Positions 39,061 to 57,957 of a DNA stretch of 64,000 nucleotides are shown here, one piece after another (positions within the stretch are counted from its first letter, which is position 1; the number at the start of each line of letters is the position of its first letter). The notes beneath the pieces were generated by a model, which saw only the letters and a list, made by a program, of their open reading frames with translations, was not told the origin of the DNA and did not search any database. A program made the position numbers and the translations under genes. Origin of the DNA: Streptosporangium album (GTDB lineage: Bacteria > Actinomycetota > Actinomycetes > Streptosporangiales > Streptosporangiaceae); assembly GCF_014203795.1 (NCBI RefSeq), contig NZ_JACHJU010000008.1, positions 62,001-126,000 on the forward strand. The letters are read 5' to 3'.

Positions 39061-39165
39061 ATAATGATCTTCGCACCCGGAGCATCCTCGTCCATCGGGG
39101 CCAGGCTACGGATCAGTATCCATCACGAAATGTGGGCCAGATCCCGTTTCAAGTCGTCATAACCA

Positions 39166-40782: not shown

Positions 40783-40857
40783 GCGATCCGCCTCCAATGG
40801 CAGGTCATGAACCGCGCCGCCAGCGCCCAAGGGTTTGGGCGCCGGCGGCAGGAGGGG

Positions 40858-41107: not shown

Positions 41108-41965
41108 TCAGCTCGTCGCAGGCCAGGAGATCGTGACCAGACCGTGGGTCTTGGCGAGGACCGCCGCACGGTCGGGTATCTGCGGGGTGGTGCCGGTCGG
41201 CCAGAAGGCGATCGTGGGGGCCGGGCCGCTCCGTGCGCGGCGGTCCCACGCCTGGATCTGTTCGACCATCGCGGTCGCGGCGTCCTCTCCGTGCGCTCCG
41301 TAGGCGCGCGCCCCGAATTCGACTCCGGCGCCTATCCGGCGCACCGCCAAATAGGCGAAGGAGTCGCCGCGCACGGCCGCGTAGGGGAACCACGTGCCCC
41401 GCTCGCGGGCCAGTTCGGTTCCCTCCTCGGCGGCGACCCTGCAGAATCCGGGCAGGAAACCGGCGAACCACAGGTGCAGGTCGGCGAACGAGACCCCGTT
41501 CTGGATCGTGATGCCGGACCACACCTCGGTGCGGCCGGTCGCCAGCGCAGCGTCGAGCAGGCTCGGGTTGTCTGGTGCCCCGTCGTCGAACTGCAGCTCG
41601 ATGTGGTGGCCATCGGCGTCGGGGAGCCGGAAGATCCGGTCGGTGTGCTGCCCGTCGCCCTGCATCGCGACGAACCCGCATACCTCGGCGGAGGTGCTCA
41701 CCAGGTGGTCCGCCTCGACCTGGAACGCGATCGAGCGGGTGACGCCGTTCATGCGCAGTGGCACGACGATCACGCCGTTCTTGGCCAGCTGGTTCAGCCA
41801 GGTCGGCGGGATGTCCCACGCGCCGACCGTCACGATGATCGCATCGAACAGTCCGAGGTTAGGCACACCGTGCTCGGCGTCGGCCAGGATGACCCTGACC
41901 CGGTTGCCGTACCCGGTGGCCTCCAGTGCGGCGCTGGCCCGGTCGGTCACGTCTTGGTCGATATC
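41108..41965 (-). pseudogene. FxLD-system PIMT-type methyltransferase, C-terminal part (split by E1)
   Basis: The frame (DIDQDVTDRASAALEATGYG, AEHGVPNLGLFDAIIVTVGA, IPPTWLNQLAKNGVIVVPLR) is the SAM-binding second half of a protein-L-isoaspartate methyltransferase-like enzyme, followed by the C-terminal domain typical of the FxLD-system methyltransferase (LHLWFAGFLPGFCRV...). The N-terminal part is 15.6 kb away at 57589-57957. The two parts join in frame (121 + 2 + 283 codons = ~406 residues) once E1 is removed. It ends 58 nt before the precursor gene. Confidence 0.88.
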
Positions 41966-42015
41966 TTCTCTGTTAGATGTACGTGTCTTGGTGTATCTGA
42001 GAGGTATGTGACTGC

Positions 42016-43551
42016 GTGGGCTGGAAGGTTTATTGGGTGCCGGTTCGGCGCCTGGTAGTGCCGGAGCGTGTGCCGGTGCTGGCGGGCTGGGAGGACCTGG
42101 CGGAGCGGGAGGAGCGCACGGGGATCCACCCCGGAGATCCGATCATGCTGTCGCCGGATTGCCGGATCGATGAGCTGCTGAGCTTGTTTTTCTGCCGTTC
42201 CGCTTTCGCGCGGCTGGCGATGGGGACGAAGCGGAGTTACACCGATGATTACCGCCTGTTCTTCGACTTCCTGTGGGGCCGCGGAAAAGCATGGTCGGAG
42301 GCGACCGCGGATGACCTGTGGGACTTCGAGGACTGGAGGACCCGGTCTCCCCGCAACCCGGGCAGGGTCGGCGGGGCCCGCTGGAACCGGGGCCTGGCGG
42401 CGCTCACGCACCTGTACCGGTGGGCGGTCCGGCACGGCTATGTCGCGACGAACCCGATCGAGATGCGCGAACGGCTGGGCCAGTACGGGGAGGTGACCGA
42501 GACGCCGGCAGCGCAGGCGAAGAACGCCAGGGCGAGCAACGTGCACTGGATGACGCCGCGGATGTTCCGGCTCTGGGCAAATGTCGGCCTGCGCGGGCAC
42601 ACTGCGGAGGGCCTGGTCGCCGAGGGATGGACCGGGCGGCTGGAGGACCGCAACACGGCCTTCGCCGACCTGCTTTTCTGCTCCGGGCTGCGACTGGGCG
42701 AAGGGGCTTCGCTCCTCACGGTCGAGCTGCCGGCCACCGCGCTGGACGGCGGGAAGTTCTATCCGGCCCGGCTGGGGCGGGCGGTCACCAAGTCCAAGAA
42801 GGCCCGGACGTTCTACGTCTCGGCCCGGGTACTGGTCCAGATCGAAAGCTACCTGCAGGCGGGGCGGGCTGCCGCTATCCGGCGTGCGCAGGCCCGTGAC
42901 CTTTACGGCACCCTGCCCGGCCTGAAGATCGTCACCAAGGTGACCGGCCACAGCAGGAAGGTGCTGCACTGGCACGACCAGCACGGGGCAGAAGGCCGTA
43001 CCCCGCTGACCGACGCGGCCGCCGAGGAGCGGATGACCTTGTTCGCCCCGGGGCCGGCGGGACCAGAGCCGATGTGGGTCTGGCTGACCGAGGCCGGCCT
43101 GCCCTTCAGGCCCGCATCCTGGGAGAACGTCTTCCGGGGTGCGAGCCGCCGCTGCCGGGACGTCCTGGGCGGGGTGATGAGCGAGCCGCCGTTCGCGACC
43201 CCGCACTCGGCCCGGCACTCTTTCGCCCTCTACATGCTCGTGGTCCTGCACCATGTCATGGACCAGCGGCTGGGCCTGACCCCGGAGGAACGACGTGACT
43301 ACCGACTGCTCTACGGCGATCCCTGGCGTATGGTCCAGGACCTTCTGGGCCACTCGGAGATCACCACGACGCGCGACCGCTACCTCGCTCCCGTCGCTGA
43401 CCTGCAGCTGCGCTCGCTGCTGTCCGATCCTGATCCTGACCAGCCGGATGCCGCGGAGCGTTCCGATGACCGGGTGACATCGCTGCTGGCCCGGCTGGCC
43501 CGGGAGAGCGAGGGAATCCAGGACTTCCATGACGCGGTGATCTCGTCGTGA
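42016..43551 (+). CDS. E1 recombinase A (tyrosine recombinase)
   Basis: The 511-residue protein starts at GTG 42016, 50 bp inside the left end. The core-binding domain (~50-160, FARLAMGTKRSYTDDYRLFF) is followed by the catalytic domain. The residues are Arg in LLFCSGLRLGEGASLLTVEL, the HxxR box in TPHSARHSFALYML, His in LLGHSEITTTRDRYL and nucleophile Tyr in the same segment (DRYL). All are present, so it should cut and join DNA. Its last 4 nt overlap the next gene (GTGA), which indicates coupled translation. It is homologous in layout to 46843-48312 of E2. Confidence 0.9.
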   Translation: MGWKVYWVPVRRLVVPERVPVLAGWEDLAEREERTGIHPGDPIMLSPDCRIDELLSLFFCRSAFARLAMGTKRSYTDDYRLFFDFLWGRGKAWSEATADDLWDFEDWRTRSPRNPGRVGGARWNRGLAALTHLYRWAVRHGYVATNPIEMRERLGQYGEVTETPAAQAKNARASNVHWMTPRMFRLWANVGLRGHTAEGLVAEGWTGRLEDRNTAFADLLFCSGLRLGEGASLLTVELPATALDGGKFYPARLGRAVTKSKKARTFYVSARVLVQIESYLQAGRAAAIRRAQARDLYGTLPGLKIVTKVTGHSRKVLHWHDQHGAEGRTPLTDAAAEERMTLFAPGPAGPEPMWVWLTEAGLPFRPASWENVFRGASRRCRDVLGGVMSEPPFATPHSARHSFALYMLVVLHHVMDQRLGLTPEERRDYRLLYGDPWRMVQDLLGHSEITTTRDRYLAPVADLQLRSLLSDPDPDQPDAAERSDDRVTSLLARLARESEGIQDFHDAVISS

Positions 43552-45275
43552 GCACCCGGGGGCGCCGGGCCGCCCAGCCGGCGGGGACGCATCGCCGGCC
43601 GGTCCCTCTTTCTCCTGGCGAGCTGGTGGTCGAGCACCGTGACCGGCAGGGCCTGGCCCGCAGCTACGACTTCGCGACGCTGCAGGCGGCTCCGGCGATG
43701 CAGCGGTCATGGGCGGTGCTGTTCGCGGATGCCTGCGCTTCGGGAGGGGGCTGGGATTCCCGGTCGACAAGCTCGGACAATTTCAAGAGGCTCGCCCGGT
43801 TCGCGTCGTTCTTGGCCGGGCAGGAAGAGCCGCCCGGGGATGTCGGCGAGCTGGCGCCTTCGCACTGGACAGCCTGGAAGGTCAGCCGCCCGGCGACGAC
43901 CTACGGGTATGCCGACGTCACCAAGGTCGCCGCGTTCCTGCGCAAGGACCCCCGGCTGCGGCCAGACACCCGCGCCGCGATGGCCAAGCGCATCGCGGTG
44001 GCCAAGCCCCGGGAAGCCGCCTTCACCGAGGCTGAGTTCCTGGAGGCCAGGACGGCGGCCAGGAGGATGTTCCGCTCCGCGCACCGGCGGATCGCGGAGA
44101 ACTCACAGGTGCTGGCAGCCTGGCGGGCCGGCACCCTGGAGCCGGGGTCCGGCCAGTGGCTGCTCGGAGAGGCCCTCGACGTACTCGCCCGGACGGGCGA
44201 GGTTCCCCTGGCCGCCGCCGGCAAGATGGTCTACCGCTACCGACGGCCGCTGGGCGGTGGGAGCATCCGGGCGGCCCGGGAGCGGCTGTTCCTGAACAAG
44301 ACGGAGGTAGCGTCGCTCGCGGTGCTGCTGACAGCGGAGTTCGGGCTGAACGCGACCACCGTCAGCGAGATGCCCGCCCCGCGGGCGACTCCCGACTCCG
44401 GTGAGGGAGGCGCCCCTACATACCGGCTTGAGCTGGAAAAACGCCGTCGCGGCAGCGGCCGCCATTTCGAGACGCGCAACATCACCGACCTCGGTCCCGG
44501 CACTCCCGGGCGGCTCATCACGCAGGCTCTTGAGGCGACCGCCCTGGCGCGGTCCTTCGTCAGCGCCGCGGGCGGCCCGGACCGGCTGCTTACCTGGCGG
44601 CGGGGGCGGCTCCCGCATGCCGGGATCGAGACCATGGAACCCCTGGCCGGGCCGTTCGGGCTCGGGCTGGCCTCCCACTCCTATAAGGAATGGGCCGGCA
44701 AGGCACAGTTCGCCGGGGCCCCGATGCGGCGGATGCGCAAAACCGTCAACGTCCTGCACCGCCGCGAAGCCGGCCAGAACTCCCAGGACACGCACGACCG
44801 CGCCTACGTGGTGAACGAACCCCGGGCGCAGCAGGCCGCGGTCGCGGTGATCGCCCAGGGGGCGGCGGACGCGGCTGACGCAGCCCGCCGCACCGTCGTC
44901 GCGAAGCTCGCCGAGACCCGGCGCGCGGACGACCAGGAGACGGCCACAGCCGACTGCGGCGGCTTTCACAGCAGCCCGTTCAGTCCCGGCGGCATGGCCT
45001 GCGGCGCTTCGTTCCTGCTCTGCCTCGCCTGCCCCAACGCCCGGGTCACCCCGGCGCACCATCCCCGGCTGGCCGTCCTGCACCAGGCGCTGGACTCCCT
45101 CAATGGCATCCTCGACCCCGGCACCTGGGAGGAGGACTGGGGCGATTCCCACGCCCGGCTCGCCGACCTCCGCCAGCGGCTGGGCGAGCCGGCCTGGCAG
45201 GCCGCCGCCGGCAAGGCCACCGCGAGCGACCGCGACATCATCAACGACCTGCTGAACGGAAACTACGACCTATGA
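43548..45275 (+). CDS. E1 recombinase-like protein B (degenerate active site)
   Basis: The 575-residue protein starts at GTG 43548. Fold and length suit a tyrosine recombinase, with an N-terminal SAM-like part (SSDNFKRLARFASFLAGQEE). The Arg-I position reads LLTAEFGLNATTVSEM (Asn instead of Arg) and no normal HxxR box is seen. A Tyr-bearing stretch (QNSQDTHDRAYVV) remains. Near residue 490-505 CGASFLLCLACPN...HH forms a zinc-binding-like Cys/His group shared with the B protein of E2. It is probably a structural or target-choice partner of A and C rather than a catalyst. Confidence 0.75.
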   Translation: MSTRGRRAAQPAGTHRRPVPLSPGELVVEHRDRQGLARSYDFATLQAAPAMQRSWAVLFADACASGGGWDSRSTSSDNFKRLARFASFLAGQEEPPGDVGELAPSHWTAWKVSRPATTYGYADVTKVAAFLRKDPRLRPDTRAAMAKRIAVAKPREAAFTEAEFLEARTAARRMFRSAHRRIAENSQVLAAWRAGTLEPGSGQWLLGEALDVLARTGEVPLAAAGKMVYRYRRPLGGGSIRAARERLFLNKTEVASLAVLLTAEFGLNATTVSEMPAPRATPDSGEGGAPTYRLELEKRRRGSGRHFETRNITDLGPGTPGRLITQALEATALARSFVSAAGGPDRLLTWRRGRLPHAGIETMEPLAGPFGLGLASHSYKEWAGKAQFAGAPMRRMRKTVNVLHRREAGQNSQDTHDRAYVVNEPRAQQAAVAVIAQGAADAADAARRTVVAKLAETRRADDQETATADCGGFHSSPFSPGGMACGASFLLCLACPNARVTPAHHPRLAVLHQALDSLNGILDPGTWEEDWGDSHARLADLRQRLGEPAWQAAAGKATASDRDIINDLLNGNYDL

Positions 45276-46739
45276 CCACCCTGGCCGACACCCGGCCGTC
45301 CTGGCCCGGCCCCGACACCCCGGTGATCAGCCCCGGCCGAGTCCAGGACCATACCCGGTGCAACGCCCGCTACAGCGACCCGGCCTGGCCCCTGGGCCCG
45401 CTCTCAGGCAACCCGAGTGCCGCCAAGAACACCATTCACTGGATGGGGTTCCCGGCCGCCTTCCGCGACGAGCTGCGGTATCTCACCTGGCTGCTGATCA
45501 ACGAGTCCGTCCCCGACACGTTCCTGCTCCGCCAGGCCGGGTCCTTCCGGGCCAGGCTCGGTGCCGCGGCCATCTACGGCACCGCCCTGGTCTGGAAGGA
45601 CTTCGCCCGCTGGCTGGGCGAACGCGGCCGCACCTCGTTGGGCGCCTGCACGGAGCGGGACTACCGCGACTACACGGCCCGGATGAGCCGGCAGGGAGAC
45701 AGCCGCGACAAGGCCGTGCTGAGGCTCAACGCCCTGAGCCGGCTCTGGGTGTTCGACTTCGCCGCCGAGTACACGCTTGGCATCGCCGAACCGCCCTGGC
45801 ACCAGGAGGGCGCCGACGATTTCCTGCCTGCCGCGACTCCCCGGGGAGAGAACGCCACCGACCCGATCACCCCGGCCACAATGGGGCCGCTGCTCACCTG
45901 GGCCCTGCGGATGACCGAAGAGCATGCGCAGGACATCCTCACGGCCTGGGAACTCAAGCGCAGCATGGCCGCACGGGCCGCTTCCGCCGTCGCGACGCCA
46001 GCCACGAGGGTCTCTCTTCTCGCCTACCTGGCCGATATCGCCGAGCACGGCCGCCCGCTGCCGTCCGTGTCAAGGAAAGGCGGCACGGAAGTCGCCGTCA
46101 CCTACGTCAGCGCCCTCACCGGCGCTTCGCCGGGCCAGGTCTACGCCGTGACGAAGGAACCCCGCTGGCGTGACTACCTGCTTCGCCACCCCGGCTCCTG
46201 CCCGCTGCCGATGACGATCACCGCGACGATCGACGGCAGCCCCTGGACGAGCGCCATCGACTTCGCCGACACCGCCACCTTGATGAAGCACCTGGTCGCC
46301 GCCCTGTTCATCGTGCTGAGCTACCTCACGGGAATGCGTCCGGGAGAGGTTCTCGGGCTGCGCGTCGGCTGCTGCCCCGATCCGGAATCCGGCCGTCACC
46401 TGATCCACGGGCACGTTTTCAAGACCGCCCGCGACGAGGACGGCAACCACCTGTCCCAGGGGCAGCTCCGGGAAGTCCCGTGGGTCGCGATCCCGCCAGT
46501 CGTGAACGCCATCCGGGTCCTGGAGCAGATTACGCCCGACGGCCTGCTCTTCGCCTCGGCAGCCCACGACTTCAACGCCCGCCGCAACCACGTGGGGACG
46601 CCGTCGGCACCGGTCATGGGCCGCAGGATCGAGCACTTCGTCACCTGGGCCAACGCCCTGGCGGCTGACCATGACCGCCTCCACGAGATCATCCCCGACG
46701 ATCCGCACGGGGCCCTGGGAACCGCGCGCTTCAGGCGGA
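45272..46739 (+). pseudogene. E1 recombinase C, 5' part (split by E2)
   Basis: It starts at ATG 45272, overlapping the B stop (ATGA). It carries Arg-I in IVLSYLTGMRPGEVLGLRVG and runs to GALGTARFRR, where E2 begins at the shared AGGCGGA. The rest is at 55469-56088. Joined, the gene is 2088 nt (695 residues). The E2 insertion sits between Arg-I and the RxxR/GH/Tyr boxes, so E1 cannot currently make an active C protein. Confidence 0.88.
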
Positions 46740-46842
46740 TTCTCTCCGCTTAGTTGTGGTGTTGCGATTCGGGTTGCATGGGCTGGTGGGGGCGGGTTTC
46801 TGGCTTGCCGAGGACTGTGTTGTGTTTCTATGGTCAGCCTCC

Positions 46843-48312
46843 ATGATCTTGAATTTCTTCTCGTCTCGGGGCTGGGAGTCCTGGGACATCGAGCGTCGGC
46901 CGTTGATCCCCGAGCGGATGCCGGTGTTGATCGATGACGACCTTGCCTTCGAGGCCGGGCCCGGGGCACCTCGGCCTGCGACGGTGGTGAACGGGTGGCT
47001 TCGGGAGTTGCCCGCCAGCGGGTGTCCGGCATCGAGCTCGTGGGAGAGCTACGCGCGGGCGGTCAAGGCGTGGATGGAGTTCCTGGCCGAGCACGGCGTC
47101 GCCTTGTTCGACTCTCGGGTCCAGTTGAAGTACGCGCTCGGCAAGTACGCGGAGTACCGGGCGGCAGGGCCGGTAAAGGAACGGTTCGCGGCGACCACGT
47201 GGGGTCAGCACATGAGTGTGCTGTCGCTGTTCTACCGGTGGGCGATCGCGGAGGGCTATGCGGAGGCCGAACCGTTCACCTACCGGACGGCGCGGGCGCT
47301 GTTCGCGGGGACGGGCCGGGAGGTGCGGGTGAACCTGGCGGTGCGCCGGACACCCAAGCCCCACGTGACGATCAAGTATCTGGAGCCAGACTTCACGCAG
47401 CTGTTTCTCAACGGTCTGCGCGGGCTGGCACCTGACGGGACCGAAGACCGCTACCGGGGCCGTGAGCTGGCCCGCAACGCAGCGGTCGGCGAGCTCGCTC
47501 TGGCCACCGGGCTGCGCCTGCAGGAATTCTCCTACCTGCTGGCCTATGAGATCCCGGCGCTGCCAGCCAAGCCGACCGAGGTGCCGATCCCGTTCCCGGT
47601 GCCGTCCGGGGCGACCAAGGGCCGAAAGTTCCGCACCACCTGGATCTCTTATGCGGCTCTGGCCGCAGTGCATCAGTACCTGGAGCTGGACAGGCCGGCG
47701 ACCACGGACGGGACGGCCTGGCTGCCGCCACCGCGGTGGGGTGAGCCGCTGCTGGTGACCGAACCCGATGAGAGAGGCGGGCGGATCAGCTGCCGGTGGG
47801 AGACGCTCACTCCCTCTGAACGGCGTCGGCTGGTCGGCCCAGACGGCGGGTCGTGTGTGCTGGCGGTGAAGAACGGGGGCGGTCCGTTCACCGCCTGGGC
47901 GTCGGTGTTCGAGCGGACCTCGGATCGGATCCGGACGCGTTTCGAGCCACGGTTCCCCCACGTCCATCCGCACCGGCTGCGCCATTCCTTTTCGATGCGA
48001 ACCCTGGAATACCTGGTCAACGGGCATTACCGTCAGGCGGCCCGGCTGGTGAGAGCAACCAACTTCGGCACTGGCCCAGACGCTGCGTTGGCGTTCTACC
48101 TGTCCAAAGCCGACCCGCTGCTGGTGTTGCGGGACCTCCTCGGCCACGCATCCGTGTTGACCACGGAAAAGTACCTGCGGCGCCTCGACACCACGAGGAT
48201 CTTCCGTGAGGCCTATGAACAGGCCGGGATCGCCGACGGGCTGCTCGCTGACGCGGACGCTGAGCGCGAGGCGGACACGGAGTTCGCTGGCGATGCGGCT
48301 GGGGTGAGCTGA
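46843..48312 (+). CDS. E2 recombinase A (tyrosine recombinase)
   Basis: The 489-residue protein starts at ATG 46843 (MILNFFSSRGWESWD). This start is preferred over 46756 because RRPLIPERMPVL then aligns with the N-terminus of E1 recombinase A (RRLVVPERVPVL). Active-site residues are Arg in LALATGLRLQEFSYLLAYE, HxxR in HPHRLRHSFSMRTLEY, His in LLGHASVLTTEKYLRRL and Tyr in the same stretch. All are complete. Its stop overlaps the B start by one base (TGATG). With C it should catalyse excision and insertion of E2. Confidence 0.88.
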   Translation: MILNFFSSRGWESWDIERRPLIPERMPVLIDDDLAFEAGPGAPRPATVVNGWLRELPASGCPASSSWESYARAVKAWMEFLAEHGVALFDSRVQLKYALGKYAEYRAAGPVKERFAATTWGQHMSVLSLFYRWAIAEGYAEAEPFTYRTARALFAGTGREVRVNLAVRRTPKPHVTIKYLEPDFTQLFLNGLRGLAPDGTEDRYRGRELARNAAVGELALATGLRLQEFSYLLAYEIPALPAKPTEVPIPFPVPSGATKGRKFRTTWISYAALAAVHQYLELDRPATTDGTAWLPPPRWGEPLLVTEPDERGGRISCRWETLTPSERRRLVGPDGGSCVLAVKNGGGPFTAWASVFERTSDRIRTRFEPRFPHVHPHRLRHSFSMRTLEYLVNGHYRQAARLVRATNFGTGPDAALAFYLSKADPLLVLRDLLGHASVLTTEKYLRRLDTTRIFREAYEQAGIADGLLADADAEREADTEFAGDAAGVS

Positions 48313-49300
48313 TGCCCGCCACGGTCCTGCAGGACCCGTTGGGAATCTGGTGCGTGTTCAGCGACGGCAGCACCGCACGGTTCGACCTGGCGGGGCTGCC
48401 CTGCCCCGAGCTGGTCGGTGATCTTCTGGCGGGGCTGGCCGAGCTGGTCCATCCCCATGGCAGCATCGACGCTGCTGGCTCGGTCGACCTGTGTCTTCCG
48501 CCGATCCGCAACCTTGTGAAAGGGCTTGCGTCGTCGGGGTTCACCGGCGGCGCCGCGCAGCTACGGCGCGGGATGCTGACCGAGTACTGGATGGCCACCC
48601 GGGTGTTCCGCTGGGAGGGGTTCCTCCGACGGATGCTGAAGGGGTTCGACTCGGTGACCGGCCGACTTGATCCCGGAGTCCGGGAGTTGCTGGCCGGCCG
48701 TGCCTACAGCCCAGCCCCGCACCGGCAGCCCCTGCCGCCGTATTCAGAGACCGAATGGGAGCTGCTCACCAGGACCTGCACGGAGATCGTCGATGAGTCC
48801 TACGCCGAGCATCGGCAGGCGCTAACCGCCTCCGACCACGGGAAGGCCCCGACGGTCGAGGACTGGAGCAGCGACAACCTGGCGTGGTTGCTGGCCAGGC
48901 TCGGACCCGTCGGAACGCCCGGGGTCGCTGAGCACCTGGGCTGCTCACTCAACGCGGTGCAAAAACGCGGCGGTGTTCCCGCGGCGAGTGCCCGGTTGTT
49001 CCCGCACTTGAGTGAGGTCATCGCCTATCGGCTGTTGTTCGGCATCTACTCCGGGATCGTGCCCGATGGCATCGATGACCTGGTGGTCGATGACATCGAC
49101 TGGGCCGGGGACACCACCATCTTGTTGTCCTACGTCAAGGGCCGGACCGCTGCCGAGAGCCTCAACCTGCCGAAAAGAGCGGTACGGCTGCTGGAGCAGT
49201 GGTTGGCCCACTCCTCGTTGCTGCGCAGCCACGCCGATCCGCAAGTCGCAGGTCAGCTGTGGTTGTGGCTCACCCGGCCGGGCACGTCGGCGGTGCTGAG
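48312..49300 (+). pseudogene. E2 recombinase-like protein B, 5' part (split by IS copy B)
   Basis: It starts at ATG 48312. N-terminal part (VLQDPLGIWCVFSDGSTARF), core-binding-like region and YRLLFGIYSGIVPDGIDDLV, where the Arg-I residue is absent as in E1 B. It is cut at LTRPGTSAVL by IS copy B. The remainder is at 51141-51874. Together they give ~573 codons, matching the 575-residue E1 B protein. Confidence 0.8.
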
Positions 49301-49403
49301 TGAGATCGTTCCAACTTGAAGTTGCTGGTCAGGGGCCTGGTGTGATCCGTTGAGGGCATGCTCTGGCTGGTGGTGGGTACTGATCATGGTGGGTGATCAT
49401 CGG

Positions 49404-50294
49404 TCAGCGGGTGTGTTCGGTGATGGCCAGGACCATCAGCGCGCGGAGCAGCTTGGTGACGTGGATGGCGTCCAGGCGGAGCTTGGTGAGGATGCGCCAG
49501 GCCTTCAACGTGGCGAAGCCGTGCTCGACGGGGGCGCGTTCGGCGCTGATGAGCCGGTTGACCTGCTTTTGCGCGGGGGTGAGGGGCCTGCCGCGGGTGG
49601 CTTTGCGGCCGGTGATGATGACCGGATTGTCGTCATCGTCGTCCAGGCCGACGAAGCCGAGGTCGGCGATAGCGCCCAGCCCGGCCTCGCGCAGGCGGGC
49701 GGTGAGGCGGTTGTGCCGGGCGGTGGTGATCTCCGATGCGCGACCAGGCCGGACGGCGGAGACCCACAGCAGGTTGCCGCGGGTGTCGGTGAGCGCCACC
49801 ACGAGCAGCCCGTGGGCCTTGTGCTTGCCCGAGTAGTTCCTGCGGTTGTCGGCTCCGGTGCGGCGGCGGGTGCGGATCAGGGTGCCATCCAGCAGGACGA
49901 CCTCACCACCGGCTTTGGCGATCTTCTTCAGGGCGCGGTCCAGGCGGGGTGCGCGGGCGGCGAGCAGTTCGACGGTCTCCAGCATCCAGCGTCGCACGGT
50001 GGAGGCCGAGACGTTGTTGGCGCCGGCCATGTCGGCCAGGCGCTGGTCATGGCGTAAGACGGCCAGCACGATGGTGGCGATCTTCCCGGCGGGCAGTTTC
50101 CGCCAGCGCGAGCCGATGGTCTTGAGATGAGCGCGCAGCAGGTCGGCCAGGAAGGTGAGGGTTTGGGTGGACAGCGGCAGCATGCAGGAGTAGACAGGCG
50201 AGGGCGTGTCTTCGGCGGACGTCGAAGCCTTCGACGTTGTCGATGTCGTGGTTTTGGTTGTGGTCACACGCCGCCAGGCCCCCGCCGGGGACAC
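49404..50294 (-). CDS. IS5-family transposase (copy B)
   Basis: The 296-residue protein is identical to the copy A transposase: GTG start at 50294, HTH NNVSASTVRRWMLETVE, catalytic Asp in VVLLDGTLIRTRR and Asp in AIADLGFVGLDDD, Glu in APVEHGFATLKAWRIL. It reads against the recombinase genes around it. Its promoter region lies on the 51-kb side, so it does not drive the E2 operon. Confidence 0.88.
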   Translation of the reverse strand: MSPAGAWRRVTTTKTTTSTTSKASTSAEDTPSPVYSCMLPLSTQTLTFLADLLRAHLKTIGSRWRKLPAGKIATIVLAVLRHDQRLADMAGANNVSASTVRRWMLETVELLAARAPRLDRALKKIAKAGGEVVLLDGTLIRTRRRTGADNRRNYSGKHKAHGLLVVALTDTRGNLLWVSAVRPGRASEITTARHNRLTARLREAGLGAIADLGFVGLDDDDDNPVIITGRKATRGRPLTPAQKQVNRLISAERAPVEHGFATLKAWRILTKLRLDAIHVTKLLRALMVLAITEHTR

Positions 50295-50371
50295 GCTCGG
50301 GATGTTTCACCCGGGCAGGGCCTGGCCAGGGGCTGCGGGAAGCGGCAGTGGGCGCAGTGGGCCGCCCGAGG

Positions 50372-50920
50372 TCAGGGGGCGAACGCGCCGCTGGGGGTCT
50401 TGCGCAGCCAGCCCCGCTCGGCCAGCCGGTTCAGCTTGGCCCGCACGCCTTCGACCTGCCCCGATTCGGTGGAAAGGCTGAGCTGGGCGCAGATCGCCTT
50501 GCAGATGAGGGGGCCGTCGGCGGCGCGTACCGCGGCCAGTAGCGCCTGGTAGTCGGCGGGCAGCTCATCAGTGCCGGCAGCGTGGTGACGGTGCGGGATC
50601 AGCAAACCGCCGGGCACGGGCACGGACGCGGGTACGGGTACGGGTATGGGGCGCAGCTCTATCCCCTGGGAGGCCTGCTCTGCTGCCTGGGCTGGGGTGA
50701 GCATCACCTGGTAGAACGGCGTCGGCTCACCGCCGGGCTCGCCGGGTGCGTTGAGCTGCTCGGCGGGATCGTCGGCGAGGAGTTCCTTGACCACCTGCTC
50801 GGCCACACGCAGCCGGTCCATCTCGTCTTCGGTCTCGGCCAGTTGCTCGCGCAACCGATCGGCGTGCGTGCCCAGCGCGACCAGGCGCATGGTGATGCGC
50901 TCCAGCAGCGGTGACGACAT
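50372..50920 (-). CDS. IS accessory coiled-coil/winged-helix protein (copy B)
   Basis: 182 residues from ATG 50920, identical to the copy A protein. The coiled coil (LREQLAETEDEMDRL), Pro/Val linker and C-terminal VEGVRAKLNRLAERGWL are unchanged. It is placed 77 nt upstream of the transposase. Perfect conservation of this second gene in all copies suggests it is needed for movement. Confidence 0.7.
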   Translation of the reverse strand: MSSPLLERITMRLVALGTHADRLREQLAETEDEMDRLRVAEQVVKELLADDPAEQLNAPGEPGGEPTPFYQVMLTPAQAAEQASQGIELRPIPVPVPASVPVPGGLLIPHRHHAAGTDELPADYQALLAAVRAADGPLICKAICAQLSLSTESGQVEGVRAKLNRLAERGWLRKTPSGAFAP

Positions 50921-51140
50921 GGCTTCCCCCGGCCGACAAGACAACGATTACCTGGCGAGATCACCAGGACACGGACGATAACGACCCCAGGCCGGGCAGC
51001 GCAGACGAAAGCCGGAAGATCCACATTTGCCCCCGGCGGACGATCGAGACCCATGATCCCAGCCGTCTACCAGGAGAGAGCACACTCAACACCGCCAGGC
51101 CACCCCCTCCGACCTGCGAGGACAGGATGGAACTAGCTCA

Positions 51141-51874
51141 GTGGGCCGATCAGCCGCAATTCCGTCAAAGCCTGGGCGGTTCAGCGTTCTTTGACCGGTG
51201 ACGACGGGACACCGTTGAAGATCCACCGAGCACGGATCCGCACCACTCACGTGGCGACGCGCGACCGCAGGGCCTGGACCGGTCAGGGCCGGGCGACCAT
51301 CGACCCGAACCACAGCCCGCAGGTCGAAAGCGATCACTATCTGACCGCGACGACCCCGTCCCAGCAACGGGCGGTGGAGGCCACCATCGAGGACGCCCAG
51401 CATGACCTGCTGCGCCGGGCTCACCCGCCGACCGTCATCACCGACGAGGACGCCGCGGCCTTGGCCCGGGACTACCCGCAGCTGATCGCCGATCTCGAGC
51501 TGGACGACACCGTGATCGCCGAACTGGTCGGCGGGGAACGTGATGTGTTCACCGCCGCCTGCGCCGACCAACTGTCCGGGCTGCACGGGCCGAAGGGCAA
51601 ACCGTGTCCAGCCCGGCCCTGGGTGTGTCTGCTCTGCCCGCTCGCGGTGTTTGCGCCCCGGCACGCCTCCAACCTGCTGCGGCTCAGGGTTTTCTTCTCC
51701 CGGCAGTGGCAGCAGATGCCCGCCGCCCACTTCATGGCCGTGTTCGGGCCGTACTCCCAGCGGATCGGTGAGGTCCTGGACCGATTCGACCCGGTGCTCC
51801 TGGCGGCCGCGGCCGCGAGCGTCGGCGGCTGTGACGAGGAGCTGCCGCTGCGGCCCGAGGAGGCCACGCGATGA
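51141..51874 (+). pseudogene. E2 recombinase-like protein B, 3' part
   Basis: The frame starting at 51143 reads ISRNSVKAWAVQRSLTGDDG, KIHRARIRTTHVATRDRRAW, then NHSPQVESDHYLTATTPSQQ and ends EEATR, overlapping the C gene by 4 nt (ATGA). CPARPWVCLLCPLAVFAPRH is the Cys/His group also found in E1 B. The IRTTH and NHSP...DHYL stretches resemble worn HxxR and His/Tyr boxes. As a stand-alone piece (a TTG at 51191) it could be translated from within the operon. Confidence 0.75.
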
Positions 51875-54069
51875 CCGCGATTAGTGTGTTCGCCGCCCCG
51901 TCGGGAGCTGCCGGTTCGGTATTCGCCAGCGCCGATGTCTGCCGGGAGGCCGGTCTCAACCTGCCCGAGGGAGTACGACGTCCGCTCTTTGAGGACGACC
52001 TGTGGGACCTCGCCGAGGTTGTCGGCCTCCCGATCTCCCTCGCGCTTCAGCACCGGCGGTTCAACTTCGCGCTCATCCACGACCGGCGATGGCGGCTGGT
52101 CGCCAAAGAGCTGATTATGGCGTTGCTCGCCCCGGGGCACGAGGCGGTGGCGTCACTACCGCGGGCCTACCGGGCGACACACCACGTCAGCACCTGCCAC
52201 GGCCGGCTCGCTGAACTGATCCGGTTCGCCAAATGGCTCACCGGCCACGGCGTGACCAGCCTGCAGGACCTGAGCAGCGACGACTGCGACGCCTACCTCG
52301 CTCATCGCCGCTACCAGCGCGATCAGGACGACGTCATGGTCGGTGAACGAGGGTCGGGAACCCGGCGGCTGGCCGCTCTGATCGTGACCGACCTGCTGAA
52401 CTACCGAGAACTGTTCACCGCTGATCGCGTCCCGGCAGATCTACGTCCGTGGGGCGGCGCGACACCGTCGGCGATCGCCGAGGACACCTCCGGGAACGGG
52501 CAGAACAAGACCCCGCCCGCCAACAACGAGGTGCTCCAGCCGATGCTGGCCGCAGCCTTGCACCTGGTGAACATCATCGGCCCGCAGGTCGTGGTCCTGG
52601 CCGGGCAAGTGCGCGCCGCCGACCAGGAATGGTCGGCCAGGAGCGAGGGCCTCAAGTCCCCGTCCCGGGTTCCTCTCGCTGAGATCACAGAAGTGCTGGC
52701 CGGCTACGAACGCGCGGGGCGGCCGCTCCCGGAGATGCAGGACCGCCACGTCCAGGACCGGATCAAGGCCGGTTGGTCGGCGAACGACCCGCTGGCCCCG
52801 ATCGCGTTGAGCGTCCTGATCCGCCAAGCCGGGTTCCGCCAGTTCCACACCGCTTGGCTGCCGCACCTGCGCGCCCCCGTCGAAGCAACACTCAAAGTGG
52901 TCGGGTCCGCGAGGCCCTTCGGTTGGGATACGGCGGTCGTCGACCGCGCCGATGACCAGGGGGCGGTGCCCTGGACGCTGCCGCTGCACAAGGAACAGGC
53001 AAGCGCCCTCGCCTACATCGTCCGGACCGCCTGCATCCTCGTGCTGGCGGCGACCACCGGGATGCGCGCGAGCGAGCTCATGGAACTGAAAGTCGGTTGC
53101 CGCCGCCCGCCCGAGCAGTACGCCCCCGGCCTGGTTCGCTACCGGCTGGCCAGCAAACTCATCAAGGGCCAGCCGCTCGGCGGCACCCACGATGAATGGG
53201 TCGTGATCGATGCCGCCTACCAGGCCGTCGCGCTCGCCGAGCAACTCCACAACGACCCAAGCGAAGGAGCACACCTGTTCGGCCGGTTCCACTTCGGCTC
53301 CCGCTACCAGGGATTCCGTCAGTGGGTGAACAACCCGGCAGGGCAGCGCCTGGGACTCAGCCCGATTCCCGAAGACCGACTGAACATGAGGATGCTCCGG
53401 CGGCGACTGGCCATAGAACTCGCCTACCGACCGGGAGGTCTGCTTGCAGCGAAGATCCACCTACGCCACGTCAGCACCGCGACTACTGAGGGTTACGCAT
53501 CGCGTCCGGGTGGAGCCCAAGCCGAGCTACTCGCCGAGGTCAGCGACCACGAACAAGAACGCAACCTGGCGCTGGTGCTGGAGGAGTTCCGAAACTACCA
53601 AGCCGGGATCCTGCCCGCAGGGCCAGGCGCACGAGACCTCACCGAGTTCTTCGCCCACGTCGATGCCGAACTCGCCCCCGATGCGGCCCAGGCCGTCGGG
53701 GCGCCACGGGTCCAGGCCAGCGACCGAGACGTCCTGAACCTGCTGACCAAGCGGGCCAGGACCCTCCACCTGGGCGCAGCCAACTACTGCTGGTTCGTCG
53801 ACCCCGCCCGGGCTCTATGCCTGAAGCTCGCTGGCACCCCGCACGCCGACAAACCGCTCGCAGGAATGTGCGACTCAGCCCGCTGCCCGCAAGCCACCCA
53901 CCACCCCTGCCACCGGCCCGTCTGGGCCGACCACACCGACCGGACCAAGACCTTCCTCGGCGGCCTCGGCGCGACCCGCAAGACCGAGAGAACCCGTCTC
54001 CAAATCGAATACGACCGGTCCGCGCGCGTGCTGGCCGAGATCGACGCAGCCACCACCACCAGAAAGTAG
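51871..54069 (+). CDS. E2 recombinase C (large tyrosine recombinase)
   Basis: The 732-residue protein starts at ATG 51871. Catalytic residues: Arg in LVLAATTGMRASELMELKVG, RxxR in MRMLRRRLAIELAYRPGGL and His/Tyr in IHLRHVSTATTEGYASRPGG. A C-terminal Cys/His segment (CLKLAGTPHADKPLAGMCDS, RCPQATHHPCHRPVWADHTD) looks like a zinc-binding module for DNA or partner contact; E1 C has an equivalent (LDRCVATCANISRTDRHADL). It is intact, unlike E1 C. It ends 2 nt before the coiled-coil gene. Confidence 0.88.
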   Translation: MTAISVFAAPSGAAGSVFASADVCREAGLNLPEGVRRPLFEDDLWDLAEVVGLPISLALQHRRFNFALIHDRRWRLVAKELIMALLAPGHEAVASLPRAYRATHHVSTCHGRLAELIRFAKWLTGHGVTSLQDLSSDDCDAYLAHRRYQRDQDDVMVGERGSGTRRLAALIVTDLLNYRELFTADRVPADLRPWGGATPSAIAEDTSGNGQNKTPPANNEVLQPMLAAALHLVNIIGPQVVVLAGQVRAADQEWSARSEGLKSPSRVPLAEITEVLAGYERAGRPLPEMQDRHVQDRIKAGWSANDPLAPIALSVLIRQAGFRQFHTAWLPHLRAPVEATLKVVGSARPFGWDTAVVDRADDQGAVPWTLPLHKEQASALAYIVRTACILVLAATTGMRASELMELKVGCRRPPEQYAPGLVRYRLASKLIKGQPLGGTHDEWVVIDAAYQAVALAEQLHNDPSEGAHLFGRFHFGSRYQGFRQWVNNPAGQRLGLSPIPEDRLNMRMLRRRLAIELAYRPGGLLAAKIHLRHVSTATTEGYASRPGGAQAELLAEVSDHEQERNLALVLEEFRNYQAGILPAGPGARDLTEFFAHVDAELAPDAAQAVGAPRVQASDRDVLNLLTKRARTLHLGAANYCWFVDPARALCLKLAGTPHADKPLAGMCDSARCPQATHHPCHRPVWADHTDRTKTFLGGLGATRKTERTRLQIEYDRSARVLAEIDAATTTRK

Positions 54070-54071
54070 AC

Positions 54072-54530
54072 ATGCGACTCACCGCTGAACAACGTCAACA
54101 GAACGAAACCAAGATCCGAGCCGCCATGGACAAGATCCTGCGCGGTGACATCCCACCCGGCGGAAAATCCGACATCAAGACCCTCGCCCGCGAAGCGGGC
54201 GTCGATCGCACCGCCTTCTACGGCACCCGCCCCTACGTTCACCTCCGCACCGAGTTCGAGCGGCGCCTCCAGGCACTGCAAGACGCCGGCGAAATCCCCG
54301 ACCCCCGCGAGGCCCAGATCGCCCGGCTCAAGGCAGAGAACACCAAGCTCAAGGAACGGCTGACCCAGGCCGCGCAAGAGGTCGATCAGCTCACGGACTT
54401 CCGCACCCAGGCCCTGGCCCGGCTCGCCGCACAGCACGAGGAGATCATCCGGCTCCGCGAAGCCGCCGCAACAACTCGGGTCAGCCGCCTGCCGCCGCCC
54501 CGAACCACCGCCATCGGGACATGCAGTTGA
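54072..54530 (+). CDS. E2 small coiled-coil protein (TnpC/DUF6262-like)
   Basis: The 152-residue protein starts at ATG 54072. The N-terminal ~50 residues look like a small HTH (IKTLAREAGVDRTAFYGTRP). A coiled coil follows (AQIARLKAENTKLKERLTQA). This is the arrangement of TnpC of Tn554-type elements, which affects frequency and orientation of insertion (established for Tn554). It lies directly after recombinase C in the operon. The same position in E1 is filled by a homologous-layout protein (56085-56495). Confidence 0.75.
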   Translation: MRLTAEQRQQNETKIRAAMDKILRGDIPPGGKSDIKTLAREAGVDRTAFYGTRPYVHLRTEFERRLQALQDAGEIPDPREAQIARLKAENTKLKERLTQAAQEVDQLTDFRTQALARLAAQHEEIIRLREAAATTRVSRLPPPRTTAIGTCS

Positions 54531-54588
54531 TACCGCATACCCGACAGGGTGCTCGCTCTCGCATGCTGAACGTAGACCTCACCAGCGA

Positions 54589-55299
54589 TCAGACCGGGTC
54601 CTCGTCAGTCAGCGAAGGCATCGCGCGTGGACGCAGGACCATGAGCGAGCCTTCCAAGGTCGCCACCATGGCAAAGGGAAACCGGTCGACCTCAAGACAG
54701 AGCGCAACGTCATCAGGATGGACCCCTTGACGCACCCCCTCCGCCAGTTCGGCGGCGGCGCGCGACTCCGCAGCGCGGCGGAGGAACTCAGCAGCATCCG
54801 TCCCAGCCTCGGTGGCCCTCCGAGCGATGTATTGAGCGCACGCCAGATCTTCATCGGCCTGCCCATCGTCGCCAGTGACCACGAACGTGACACTGTCACT
54901 CTTGCGCGTCCGCAAGAGCCGAGCTGTTGCCTCCGCCACCACGAAGCTGGCGCACAGCACCAGCGGCGCCTCCTTGACCGCAAGGGCGCCGACCGTCCCT
55001 GCCGTGGTTTTCTGCACAACGGTCCGTCCGCCAAGGTCGATAGACCGCAGCAGGCCCGGCGAGTTGACGGCGTCGAACCCGGGCGCGGGCGGACCGTCTT
55101 TGAGCGCCACCCAATCCGGGTGGCGAGCCTTGAGCGCCAGGGCTTCGTCCAGCGACTCAGCAAGAACGATCTTTTCCGCCCCCTGGGCAAAGGCCCAGGC
55201 AGCCACGGTGAAAGCACGCATGACGTCGACGACGACCGCCACGGACGGGGCTTCGACCAGATCAGCGATACCAAGGAAACGAGTGTCCATTCCGGTCAT
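54589..55299 (-). CDS. ComB-like 2-phosphosulfolactate phosphatase (E2 cargo)
   Basis: The 236-residue protein starts at ATG 55299; ATG 55290 is an alternative, and neither has a clear ribosome site. It matches the ComB fold pattern: [71 protein letters not shown] and [20 protein letters not shown]. In archaea ComB makes sulfolactate for coenzyme M; the substrate in actinobacteria is unknown. It converges on the recombinase operon and lies between the coiled-coil gene and the right end, so it is cargo. Confidence 0.8.
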
Positions 55300-55468
55300 G
55301 ATCGCGCATGCCCGACCCGAGGCACCCAGAGAGTGATACGCGTCACATCGACGGCCTCGGAACGCAACACCTCCGGCTGCCTGCGTCGCGAAAGCAGTCC
55401 GCAACGACACACCTGCTCAATCGCCACACGGGGTCACCCGCACACGGCCTCTGCGGACACAAGGCGGA

Positions 55469-56088
55469 CCCTGGCCTGGCACATCGCCCGCCGTCCCGGC
55501 GGGCTGGTCGCCCTGGCCATCCAGTACGGGCACCTGCGTACCGCGATGAGCGGCCACTACGCTTCCCGCGGCCGTGACGGGATCCATGAGCTGCTCGACA
55601 TCGAGACCGCCCGCGCAACCGCCGACACCCTCACCGCCCTCAACGAGGATCTCGCCGCCGGCGGCGCCGTCTCCGGCCCCGCCGCCCGCCGGGTGATCAA
55701 CGCCGCGGCGCAGGCCCCTGATTTCACGGGAGCGATCATCACGGCCAGGGACGCACGCAACCTGCTCGGCAACCCCGCCCTTGCCGTCCACGACAACCCC
55801 GGCGGCCTTCTGCTCTGCGTCTATGACCCGCACAAGGCACTATGCCGACGCGAAGGACAGCAGGACACACCGAGCCTGGACCGCTGTGTTGCCACCTGCG
55901 CCAACATCTCGCGCACGGACCGGCATGCCGACCTGCTGATCCGCAAGGCCGAGCTCCTGGAAAAGCAGGCCGGCGGCCTGGCACCCGAACCGCTGGCCGA
56001 ACGGCTCCGGGCACGGGCCGGCATCCTCCGCGCGCACGCCGAGCAGCACCACCAGACCCGCATGACTACACAGGAGAACTCCCGATGA
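55469..56088 (+). pseudogene. E1 recombinase C, 3' part
   Basis: It continues the E1 C protein after E2: TLAWHIARRPGGLVALAIQY, then GHLRTAMSGHYASRGRDGIH with the His and nucleophile Tyr, and a Cys-containing tail (LCRREGQQDTPSLDRCVATC). It ends overlapping the coiled-coil gene (ATGA). Without the 5' part there is no start codon context, so it is silent unless E2 excises. Confidence 0.87.
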
Positions 56089-56495
56089 CCGCGCTGGACG
56101 AACGTGACCGCATCCGCGCCGCCATGGACCGCATCCTGGCGGGAACGCCTCAGCACTCCAGCGGCGCGCTGACGGTCGTCGCGCTCGCCCAGGAGGCCCA
56201 GGTCCCGCGCAACGCGCTCACCCAGCGGCACGTTGACCTCAAGAACGCCTTCTACGACGAAATCAGGAGCCGGAAGGCCGTCCCCGAAAGCGAGCTGAGG
56301 CTCGGGCGGCGGCTCGCCAGGCTCAGCAAACTGCGGGACGCGGAGGCCGAAGAACTCAGGCAACTCAAGATCGACAACGAAGCGCTCGTCGGGGCCCTCC
56401 ACCAAGCCCAGATGGAGAACCGGAAACTCCGGGAGGAACTGGCGGCTCCAGGCCCGCGGCTCCGGGCGATCCCAGGCCACCCGCGCCCGGAATAG
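56085..56495 (+). CDS. E1 small coiled-coil protein (TnpC/DUF6262-like)
   Basis: The 136-residue protein starts at ATG 56085. The N-terminal HTH-like part (VVALAQEAQVPRNALTQRHV) is followed by coiled coil (EELRQLKIDNEALVGALHQA) and a basic Pro-rich tail. Same order and overlap as in E2, with only modest sequence similarity, so E1 and E2 are relatives and not recent duplicates. A hairpin follows 11 nt after the stop. Confidence 0.72.
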   Translation: MTALDERDRIRAAMDRILAGTPQHSSGALTVVALAQEAQVPRNALTQRHVDLKNAFYDEIRSRKAVPESELRLGRRLARLSKLRDAEAEELRQLKIDNEALVGALHQAQMENRKLREELAAPGPRLRAIPGHPRPE

Positions 56496-56506
56496 ACGGC
56501 GAACCG

Positions 56507-56538
56507 GCATGCAGCCGCCACCGTGAGCGGCTGCATGC
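56507..56538 (+). terminator. Hairpin after the E1 recombinase operon
   Basis: Perfect 12-bp stem GCATGCAGCCGC / GCGGCTGCATGC with an 8-nt loop, placed 11 nt past the coiled-coil gene. There is no T-run, as is common in high-GC actinobacteria. It lies between convergent genes. Confidence 0.6.
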
Positions 56539-56664
56539 ACCTGACGCGATCGTCGGCGGCAGGTCAAGAGGCCTCCGACTGCACCACGCGGACTGCCCGG
56601 TAGGCGCGGTCCTGTCATCATGGTTCGAGCACGACGAGTGGCTCTTGTGTCTCAGGTGCACTGT

Positions 56665-57465
56665 CTATGCCCAGCCGAAATGCTTCATGACGGCTTCAAT
56701 GCCGCTCTGCAGTTGGTTCTGTTCGGCGTTAGTCAGCGGAGCCTGGTCGCAGTATGCTCCGACGAACGCTTCCCGGACGGGCTGGCTTGTCGGTCCCCAG
56801 TCGTGGAAGCGGGTTCCGAGCAGGGCTGTCGCCTTGGCGAGGTCCGACACCCTTGAGCGGTAGGTCACCTCCTCGAAGTCGAGGACGGCCGTGATGCTCG
56901 TGCCGTCATGAAGGACGTTGGCGGACCGGAAGTCATTGTGAACGAGCCGCTCATGCCGGGCCGACGGGCCGCTGCCGATGCGGTGGGGGTAGGCGGCCAT
57001 CGCGTCGTGGAGCGTCGCCAGCATGCGGCCAGCCTCGGTGACTTGCGCTGGATCTTCTACATCGAGGAGATCGCCGTCGATGACGGGAATGACGCCGAGC
57101 GAAACGTTGTCCAGCTCTACTCGAAGGCGACCATCTCGTGCCGGAATCGGAGCAGCAACAGGAATGCCGCGGTGGTGAAGCCACATGGTGAGGGTCGTCG
57201 TATCGGCCAGGCGCTGGAATAGCTTCGAGGCGACGGACCATTTCGCGATGAGGCGCCTGTCATCGGCCGTGATCCACGCCAGCAGGTTTCCGCCGCTGAT
57301 GACCAGGCGATCGCAGTCATCAACCGTGATGGTCCAGGTGTCCCAGAGGGTGTCACCCATCCAGTCGGCCGCGGAAACAGCATCGGCGAAGCCGAAGCGC
57401 TGGCTTAGAGCTTCTTCGGGGTCAGCTGACTCCCACAGCATGCTGAGCTGAGGCGTGATCTTCAT
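56665..57465 (-). CDS. APH/choline-kinase-family phosphotransferase (E1 cargo)
   Basis: The 266-residue protein starts at ATG 57465. Kinase-like motifs: LLAWITADDRRLIAKWSVAS (ATP-lysine region), the catalytic loop RLVHNDFRSANVLHD (HxD...N) and VLDFEEVTYRSRVSDL (DFE metal site). This is the APH fold that includes aminoglycoside, macrolide and other antibiotic kinases. The substrate cannot be inferred. It occupies the same convergent position at the right end of E1 as the ComB-like gene in E2. By analogy with Tn554, which carries spectinomycin and erythromycin resistance, a resistance role is plausible but unproven. Confidence 0.82.
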   Translation of the reverse strand: MKITPQLSMLWESADPEEALSQRFGFADAVSAADWMGDTLWDTWTITVDDCDRLVISGGNLLAWITADDRRLIAKWSVASKLFQRLADTTTLTMWLHHRGIPVAAPIPARDGRLRVELDNVSLGVIPVIDGDLLDVEDPAQVTEAGRMLATLHDAMAAYPHRIGSGPSARHERLVHNDFRSANVLHDGTSITAVLDFEEVTYRSRVSDLAKATALLGTRFHDWGPTSQPVREAFVGAYCDQAPLTNAEQNQLQSGIEAVMKHFGWA

Positions 57466-57588
57466 GGTCTAGTAGACCACCACATTGGGTCGCGCCGTCT
57501 GGTTCTGTTCGGGAGAACCGGTCCGCACACGGCACTAGGCCGCGAGGACTGATAGTCAGAAGTTCAACACGCTGGACTTGACAGAGAA

Positions 57589-57957
57589 GATGTCCACGCT
57601 GACCACGCGCCCACCTGAGCCGACGATCTCGGCCAGGAGCGCGGCATTTTAGCCGCCTGAACCGTACTCGAGCACATTCATGCCTGGCCTGATCTTGGCC
57701 TGTTCGATCATCCGGGCTTGGAGGAACGGTGCGCTGGTCGAGGAGATCAGCACCCCATGCTCGTCCGTCTTGATCGCCACCGACTCGTCGGCGTTGTAGG
57801 CAACCTCCATCGGGGTGCCGGCCGGGACGAACTCGTGCCGTGGCACCGCGCGGAACGCAGCCTCAACCTGGGCTGATGTGATGTGCCCGGCGGAGACGAG
57901 CTCGTCCGCGAGCTGGTCGCGCAGCTCGGCGGTGTGGTCAGCAGTCGCTCTTGTCAC
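57589..57957 (-). pseudogene. FxLD-system PIMT-type methyltransferase, N-terminal part
   Basis: It starts at GTG 57957 with AGAGGG 7 nt upstream. It reads ELRDQLADELVSAGHITSAQ, AAFRAVPRHEFVPAG, then the SAM motif I region NVLEYGSGG. The next codon is TAA where family members have Tyr (GSGGYNAAL), after which the normal frame goes on (NAALLAEIVGSGGRVVSVDI) to the E1 junction. The gene therefore carries both an insertion and a nonsense change. It is the first gene of the lanthipeptide operon side. Confidence 0.87.

Follow-up and report, generated by a model that had tools for sequence, protein, structure and literature searches.

A 64,000-nucleotide stretch of the Streptosporangium album genome (positions 62001-126000 of its contig, in an assembly of 9.02 Mb), hereafter the window, contains two mobile elements, one inserted into the other. 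The outer element, E1, spans positions 41960-57594 from core to core and has the inner element, E2, inside it; E2 lies between its two cores at 46740-55462, and both are read on the plus strand. An earlier note on this DNA had proposed these borders, and the cores and arms located here bear them out. Each element encodes three recombinase-type proteins, A, B, and C, and a small protein, D, followed by a cargo gene. We interpret E1 and E2 as compact elements of the GInt, SE, and Tn554 kind. Relatives of E2 form a group whose attachment site in the target, attB, would be box II of tyrosine recombinase genes, so that the elements of the group move between recombinase genes. We give this interpretation a probability of about 0.86.

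E2 is flanked by two 6-bp cores of the sequence GGCGGA, attL at 46734-46739 and attR at 55463-55468 (cores have no strand), and its arms are TTCTCTCCGCTTAG and TTGTGTCCGCAGAGG. The A gene (46756-48312, plus strand) encodes a tyrosine recombinase with homology from 46843. The B gene is split into a 5' part (48312-49298, plus strand, positions 1-349 of the hidden Markov model (HMM)) and a 3' part (51149-51874, plus strand, HMM positions from 353). The two parts are separated by an insertion sequence (IS) with a DDE_Tnp_4 transposase gene (49404-50294, minus strand). The IS lies at approximately 49300-51150 and has a small companion open reading frame (50372-50944, minus strand) without a Pfam match. 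As it splits the B gene, the IS arrived after that gene was in place. The C gene (51871-54069, plus strand) encodes a large tyrosine recombinase-type protein, and the D gene (54063-54530, plus strand) a coiled-coil protein with a weak match to DUF6262. The cargo gene (54589-55410, minus strand) belongs to the 2-phosphosulfolactate phosphatase family (PF04029).

The cores of E1 are GATATC at attL (41960-41965) and GATGTC at attR (57589-57594). The left arm is TTCTCTGTTAG and the right arm, given as its reverse complement, is TTCTCTGTCAAG. The left end reads ..GGTC-GATATC-TTCTCTGTTAG.. and the right end ..CTTGACAGAGAA-GATGTC-CACG.., and thus each inverted arm is bordered on its outer side by a 6-bp core. 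The A gene of E1 (42016-43551, plus strand) encodes a tyrosine recombinase with all catalytic boxes, and the B gene (43548-45275, plus strand) a recombinase-type protein without the box I arginine. The C gene is cut by E2 in box II into a 5' part (45272-46738, plus strand, HMM positions 15-509) and a 3' part (55468-56088, plus strand, HMM positions from 502). The D gene (56085-56495, plus strand) encodes a small helix-turn-helix/coiled-coil protein resembling TnpC. The 1,093 bp between D and the right end hold the cargo, an APH-family phosphotransferase gene (PF01636; 56665-57465, minus strand). The cargo genes of both elements are convergent and precede the right end, in agreement with what had been read from the sequence before.

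The breakpoint of E2 in the C gene of E1, at HMM positions 509/502, lies within the codons of R-F-R-R-T-L-A-W-H, of which R-F-R-R-T is box II. This stretch is conserved in the intact relatives L037, L038, L040, and L041 (L numbers are the ids of the loci compared in this analysis). Because E2 splits the C gene of E1, E1 was present before E2, the order of arrival that had been assumed. The two elements are distantly related, with about 27% identity between their A proteins and 27-34% between their C proteins. A search of the S. album genome with E2 C found the E1 and E2 copies and no further one. The earlier note had missed both the IS in E2 and the target of E2, box II of another recombinase gene.

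A relative of C at E <= 1e-10 is present in 21 of 345 genomes of the order, including that of S. album. A pattern scan of the GTDB collection, built on an alignment of six E2-like A proteins, yielded 101 candidate stretches and 78 loci. The same six-protein alignment fitted 44 stretches in IMG/VR, none of which is a relative by tblastn. We defined the E2 group as the loci whose A protein is about 68% or more identical to E2 A, with the addition of L153 (67%), the window, L032, and L103. L151 and L182 (67%) were left out, the former since the tree places it with the outside clade and the latter since it has the arm and type of L156. Loci L127-L132, L138/L139/L140/L165, L075/L136, L090/L144, and L089/L153 were each merged as a single insertion, whereas L137 and L159 were counted separately, as were L125 and L181, given host-fragment identities of 74% and 68%. 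L119, L121, L122, L123, L126, L133, L146, and L150 have no readable left junction and were dropped. L031, of which the right side alone is known, stands outside the count. Records L127-L132, all six mycobacterial, share one left junction in a recombinase gene with the reading P-Y-A-Y-R-H, which suggests that the host element spread after one insertion.

Among the 35 distinct insertions of the group with a readable left junction, 32 are located in the box II codons (H-x-L-R-H/R) of tyrosine recombinase genes. In close relatives, the host sequence that meets the arm TTGTCTCyGCTTAG upstream of A, translated in frame, gives box II, with the variants L-H-D-L-R-H, P-H-D-F-R-R, P-H-M-L-R-H, P-Y-A-Y-R-H, W-H-D-L-R-H, and others. 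We applied a strict in-frame motif test to a fixed interval before A, set for the E2-group junction. It could be used on 33 of the 35 loci, as L143 and L147 have too little flank and few host codons visible at the junction. The motif is present in 27 of these 33 loci, in none of 33 loci from outside it (L105 and L155 being two ids of a single locus), and in 70 of 4,624 background upstream intervals (1.5%). A match in L153 is in another frame, an artefact, and was not counted. The test missed the window copy of E2 (A-R-F-R-R), L117, L124, L145, and L149; by inspection, the window, L117, and L149 have box II at the junction. Among the fragments scanned with Pfam, PF00589 matches 18 of 29 on the left and 8 of 18 on the right. 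In L116, L138, L141, and L152, position 134 of this profile is the last one in the left part, and the right part takes it up at positions 135-139. The left part of L032 also stops at position 134, and its right part has no match. In a tree of A proteins, the box II label is clustered, requiring 12 changes compared with a mean of 21.1 after shuffling (0 of 500 shuffles were as low).

Such a distribution might arise by survivorship, if the elements inserted nearly at random and copies persisted where they did no harm, recombinase genes being dispensable. Genes of mobile elements are dispensable in general, and three members of the group lie outside recombinase genes. However, survivorship would scatter insertions along the genes and over other dispensable genes, whereas the same codons are hit repeatedly (PF00589 positions 134/135) and the motif is absent from the 33 related loci outside the group. 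We consider this explanation very unlikely.

Right ends were located by pattern, and in most mapped elements they read CTGCGGA[C/G]ACAA and then the 6-bp core; those of L124, L152, and L153 deviate by a few bases. Past the core the host frame resumes, for example as T-W-A-T, L-F-I-T, or S-Y-A-Q. An uninterrupted form of the L138 target occurs in plasmid pDK3 of Rhodococcus sp. DK17, with flanks identical at 599 of 600 and 450 of 450 positions and the core ggcata. In the R. koreensis copies L139 and L165, ggcata remains at attL, and attR carries ggcaca. The latter sequence also forms the attL core of L141, which interrupts a different integrase gene in that genome. This exchange, with the 6 bp of the host at attL and those of the donor at attR, fits the rule described for SEs and was seen in one target gene (L139, L165). 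The copies at L138 and L141, intact and cargo-free, occupy two different integrase genes of one genome and do not differ over 6,085 bp, a sign of recent movement.

The ends also bear on whether the nests were produced by homologous recombination between related recombinase genes instead of site-specific insertion. A, B, and C are related families, L125 contains several nested pieces, and the host fragments of L103 and L125 differ, which speaks for such recombination. It would not explain why the arms are conserved with a 6-bp core at either side, why the reading frame of the host continues with the next codon in different recombinases, or why a naturally empty site agrees with both L138 flanks, and we regard it as highly improbable.

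Other A-B-C-D elements are the host of six of the 35 insertions, with the A or the C gene interrupted. The C gene is struck, with both halves seen, in the window, L115, and L180, and the A gene, likewise with both halves, in L181. In L125 and L103 the left half alone is of type A, and the right fragments resemble other recombinase genes. L031 has the right half of a C gene and nothing more. As far as the fragments tell, the remaining insertions appear to lie in other tyrosine recombinase genes. Region 8798-21125 of L125 contains several nested A-B-C-D pieces, and one right-hand fragment there corresponds to the C-terminal portion of an E2-type A gene; the E2 group may thus strike its own kin too.

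The position of E2 in E1 could also be chance nesting of two GInt-type elements, without any special relation of E2 to recombinase genes; strains with two or more GInts are reported to be frequent in the part of the GInt paper covered here (PMC5385486). Against such chance stands the recurrence of the same breakpoint in the A-B-C-D elements L115, L180, and L181 and in many different integrase genes, and we find it hardly credible. The recurrent codons, the arms with their cores, and the empty site led us to reject survivorship, chance nesting, and homologous recombination as main explanations.

Several observations weigh against box II of recombinase genes as the target of the E2 group. Three of the 35 members lie outside box II (L124, L145, and L153), and inclusion of L151 and L182 would change the count to 32 of 37. 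The junction of L117 is one base off and in another frame, its right fragment being recombinase-like. The PF00589 scan gave no match for 11 of 29 left and 10 of 18 right fragments, in part owing to short fragments or to upstream runs that are out of frame. The copies in L103 and L125 may be rearranged, since their right and left fragments are unlike. In the A tree, the bootstrap of which had not settled, the group does not resolve as a single clean clade, as the 12 changes of the box II label indicate. The window copy of E2 is among several rows on open forks, and five group rows (L174, L177, L181, L183, and L186) are too short for placement. Both elements in the window are broken, and no movement was observed. 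The two cores of E2 in the window are identical, and E2 itself is therefore no test of the core rule.

We propose that A, B, and C together with the TnpC-like D would move one small segment site-specifically, using a 6-bp core between imperfect inverted arms. The attB of the E2 group would be the box II sequence, approximately CAY-nnn-CTn-CGn-CAY-A, which codes for H-x-L-R-H/R, and the target would be split directly after the box II arginine codons. With such an attB, the element would therefore move from recombinase gene to recombinase gene, and at times into A-B-C-D elements. Movement probably proceeds through a circular copy-out intermediate, and one of the element proteins would read the target. 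The benefit may lie in an abundant, conserved, and non-essential target whose loss also immobilises rivals.

The assignment of A, B, C, and D is based on gene-by-gene matches. The four proteins correspond one by one between E1, E2, and plasmid blocks of Streptomyces, Nocardia, Mycobacterium, Microbacterium, and Bradyrhizobium, in the same order, which upholds the shared layout claimed before; a Klebsiella plasmid block (L043) matches more weakly. The genes for A, B, and C are adjacent and overlapping. A has the complete set of catalytic boxes. The arginines of boxes I and II are present in C, as are H and Y, and the box II histidine is mostly lacking. In B, the box I arginine is absent from 14 of 14 aligned rows, and the tyrosine and the arginine of box II persist in many rows. 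Compared by profile, B matches C strongly (probability 94.8%, E 5.5e-8, 375 columns) and A weakly (probability 7%, 48 columns). An AlphaFold model of E2-type B is of moderate quality (pLDDT 75, pTM 0.48). Its best PDB matches are XerH, Cre, and XerD, with an E-value of 7.7e-4 for XerH and low TM-scores of 0.24 and 0.37, and the predicted model supports a recombinase fold only.

The four-gene layout, for which the earlier note knew of no standard description, is a known kind. In the parts of the cited papers covered here, it is published as GInts with the genes ginABCD (Bardaji et al. 2017, PMC5385486) and as SEs with the genes intA-tfp-intB-srap (Idola et al. 2023, PMC10214605), and is related to Tn554. 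We likened E1 and E2 to these elements by the published descriptions of layout, not by protein similarity. GInts have three recombinase-type genes and a small TnpC-like gene at the left end, and share with E1 and E2 the gene order and strand, cargo right after D, a short right end, imperfect repeats, a 6-nt staggered core, site specificity, and one recombinase without the first catalytic arginine (PMC5385486). Published traits of GInts also include a requirement for each of the four genes and a circular form. The protein without this arginine is GinC in that description, whereas here it is B, the product of the second gene, as in SEs (PMC10214605). GInt cargo measures 2.5-70 kb, compared with 0.16-1.63 kb in the E2 group and 1,093 bp in E1, and GInt targets include ssb gene ends and an ABC transporter gene, unlike the recombinase box II of the E2 group (PMC5385486). 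The word 'Actinobacteria' is absent from the main text of that paper in the form covered.

SEs resemble E1 and E2 in the order of intA, the non-catalytic tfp, the large intB, and srap, in imperfect inverted termini, and in a 6-bp spacer (PMC10214605). Their 6-bp rule, which places the 6 bp of the host next to C in attL and those of the donor in attR, is the one followed by L139 and L165, and SE-6945 has one named cargo gene, like the slot of the E2 group (PMC10214605). In contrast to the actinobacterial E1 and E2, SEs are described from Gammaproteobacteria only, and their named insertions (bcp, insJ, and the yjjN locus; n=3) are not in recombinase box II (PMC10214605). The resemblance to Tn554 and TnpC that had been noticed holds. 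Tn554 and its actinobacterial relatives combine an ordinary and a long tyrosine recombinase with TnpC and are site-specific, as here (Van Houdt et al. 2012, PMC3414803); Tn554 has no B gene (PMC10214605), unlike E1 and E2, in which B lies between A and C. Recombinase-in-trio (RIT) elements share the three adjacent overlapping recombinase genes, and their description in the covered part of PMC3414803 has neither a D gene nor a cargo slot, unlike E1 and E2.

The kind of element is thus already known, and what looks new is the target choice of E2. This choice is surprising and, on comparison of the sequences, appears well supported. The target of Tn554, att554, lies in radC, not in a recombinase gene. 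Our literature search, which covered mostly open-access papers, in part, and no preprints, found no element group described as targeting box II. Single cases come close in the passages seen: one transposon interrupts an AICE integrase gene (PMC9513070), and one RIT type lies inside the transposase gene of a Tn6049-like transposon, as a single shared insertion (PMC3414803).

Site-specific elements of such kind are usually described with one or few target genes, whereas the E2 group uses the most conserved codons of the recombinase superfamily. With this landing pad, integrase-rich genomes offer many targets. Each landing of the group breaks a mobility gene of another element, and predation of one mobile element on another thereby becomes open to testing. 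The insertions also supply naturally occurring attB variants from which DNA recognition by such recombinases could be learned, and the right-hand 6 bp are a footprint that may record the previous host gene.

A single small cargo slot, as proposed for both elements, was confirmed for the E2 group and was not shown for the wider family. The block search and cargo tabulation that had been suggested gave room for no gene or about one per E2-group element. The distance from D to the right end is 159-1,633 bp in all 23 mapped elements of the group; in six of them it is 189 bp or less, too short for a gene, and in the other 17 about one gene would fit. The PF04029 phosphatase of the window recurs in L116 with 93% identity. 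Other cargoes are methyltransferase (L032, L115, and L148), HAD (L075), NUDIX (L117, L118, and L135), AadA_C-like (L137), metallophosphatase (L180), YunG (L118 and L152), and alpha/beta hydrolase (L103) genes, and the cargo regions of L125, L173, and L181 have no Pfam match. For six E1-like elements (L037, L038, L040, L092, L093, and L094), no convincing right end was found within 6-8 kb of D, and no shared target was seen among them. Therefore, we claim neither a single cargo nor a target choice for the relatives of E1. In an alphaproteobacterial A-B-C-D block (L036), of which the right end was not mapped, mer genes follow.

Landing on conserved catalytic codons may be a wider habit of such elements. 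All four members of a sister clade (L166, L168, L171, and L187) interrupt class I methyltransferase genes just past S-adenosylmethionine motif I, and the fragments start at profile positions 7-9 of Methyltransf_11/12/25. In another group, three of the six loci viewed (L163, L164, and L169) have I-L-D-L-F-A-G before the junction; Pfam confirmed no methyltransferase in L163 and L169, the two scanned. E1 itself is also inserted in a methyltransferase gene. We see an even chance that the conserved catalytic codons of large enzyme superfamilies serve as homing sites in the evolution of groups of four-gene recombinase elements, as they do for inteins and homing introns, but here by means of a tyrosine recombinase system, with the E2 group immobilising competitors and at times kin.

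Two further records show unusual arrangements of these genes. L093 (1832-13857, the same genome stretch as L084) has two distantly related A-B-C-D blocks back to back, with divergent A genes about 370 bp apart. L042, a 13,738-bp circular plasmid record from Streptomyces, has an A gene running across the record ends and a B gene at 11-500, which adjoin a two-recombinase set annotated as integrases.

The gene split by E1 is of the PCMT type, with its N-terminal fragment at 57649-57957 and its C-terminal fragment at 41108-41950, both on the minus strand. PF01135 matches with positions 4-83 in the right-hand fragment and 112-205 in the left-hand fragment. The N-terminal fragment has a second lesion, an in-frame stop directly after the G-S-G-G motif. 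The neighbourhood of the split gene includes a gene at 39157-40830 that is lantibiotic dehydratase-like and, at 37477-39060, an ISL3-type transposase gene.

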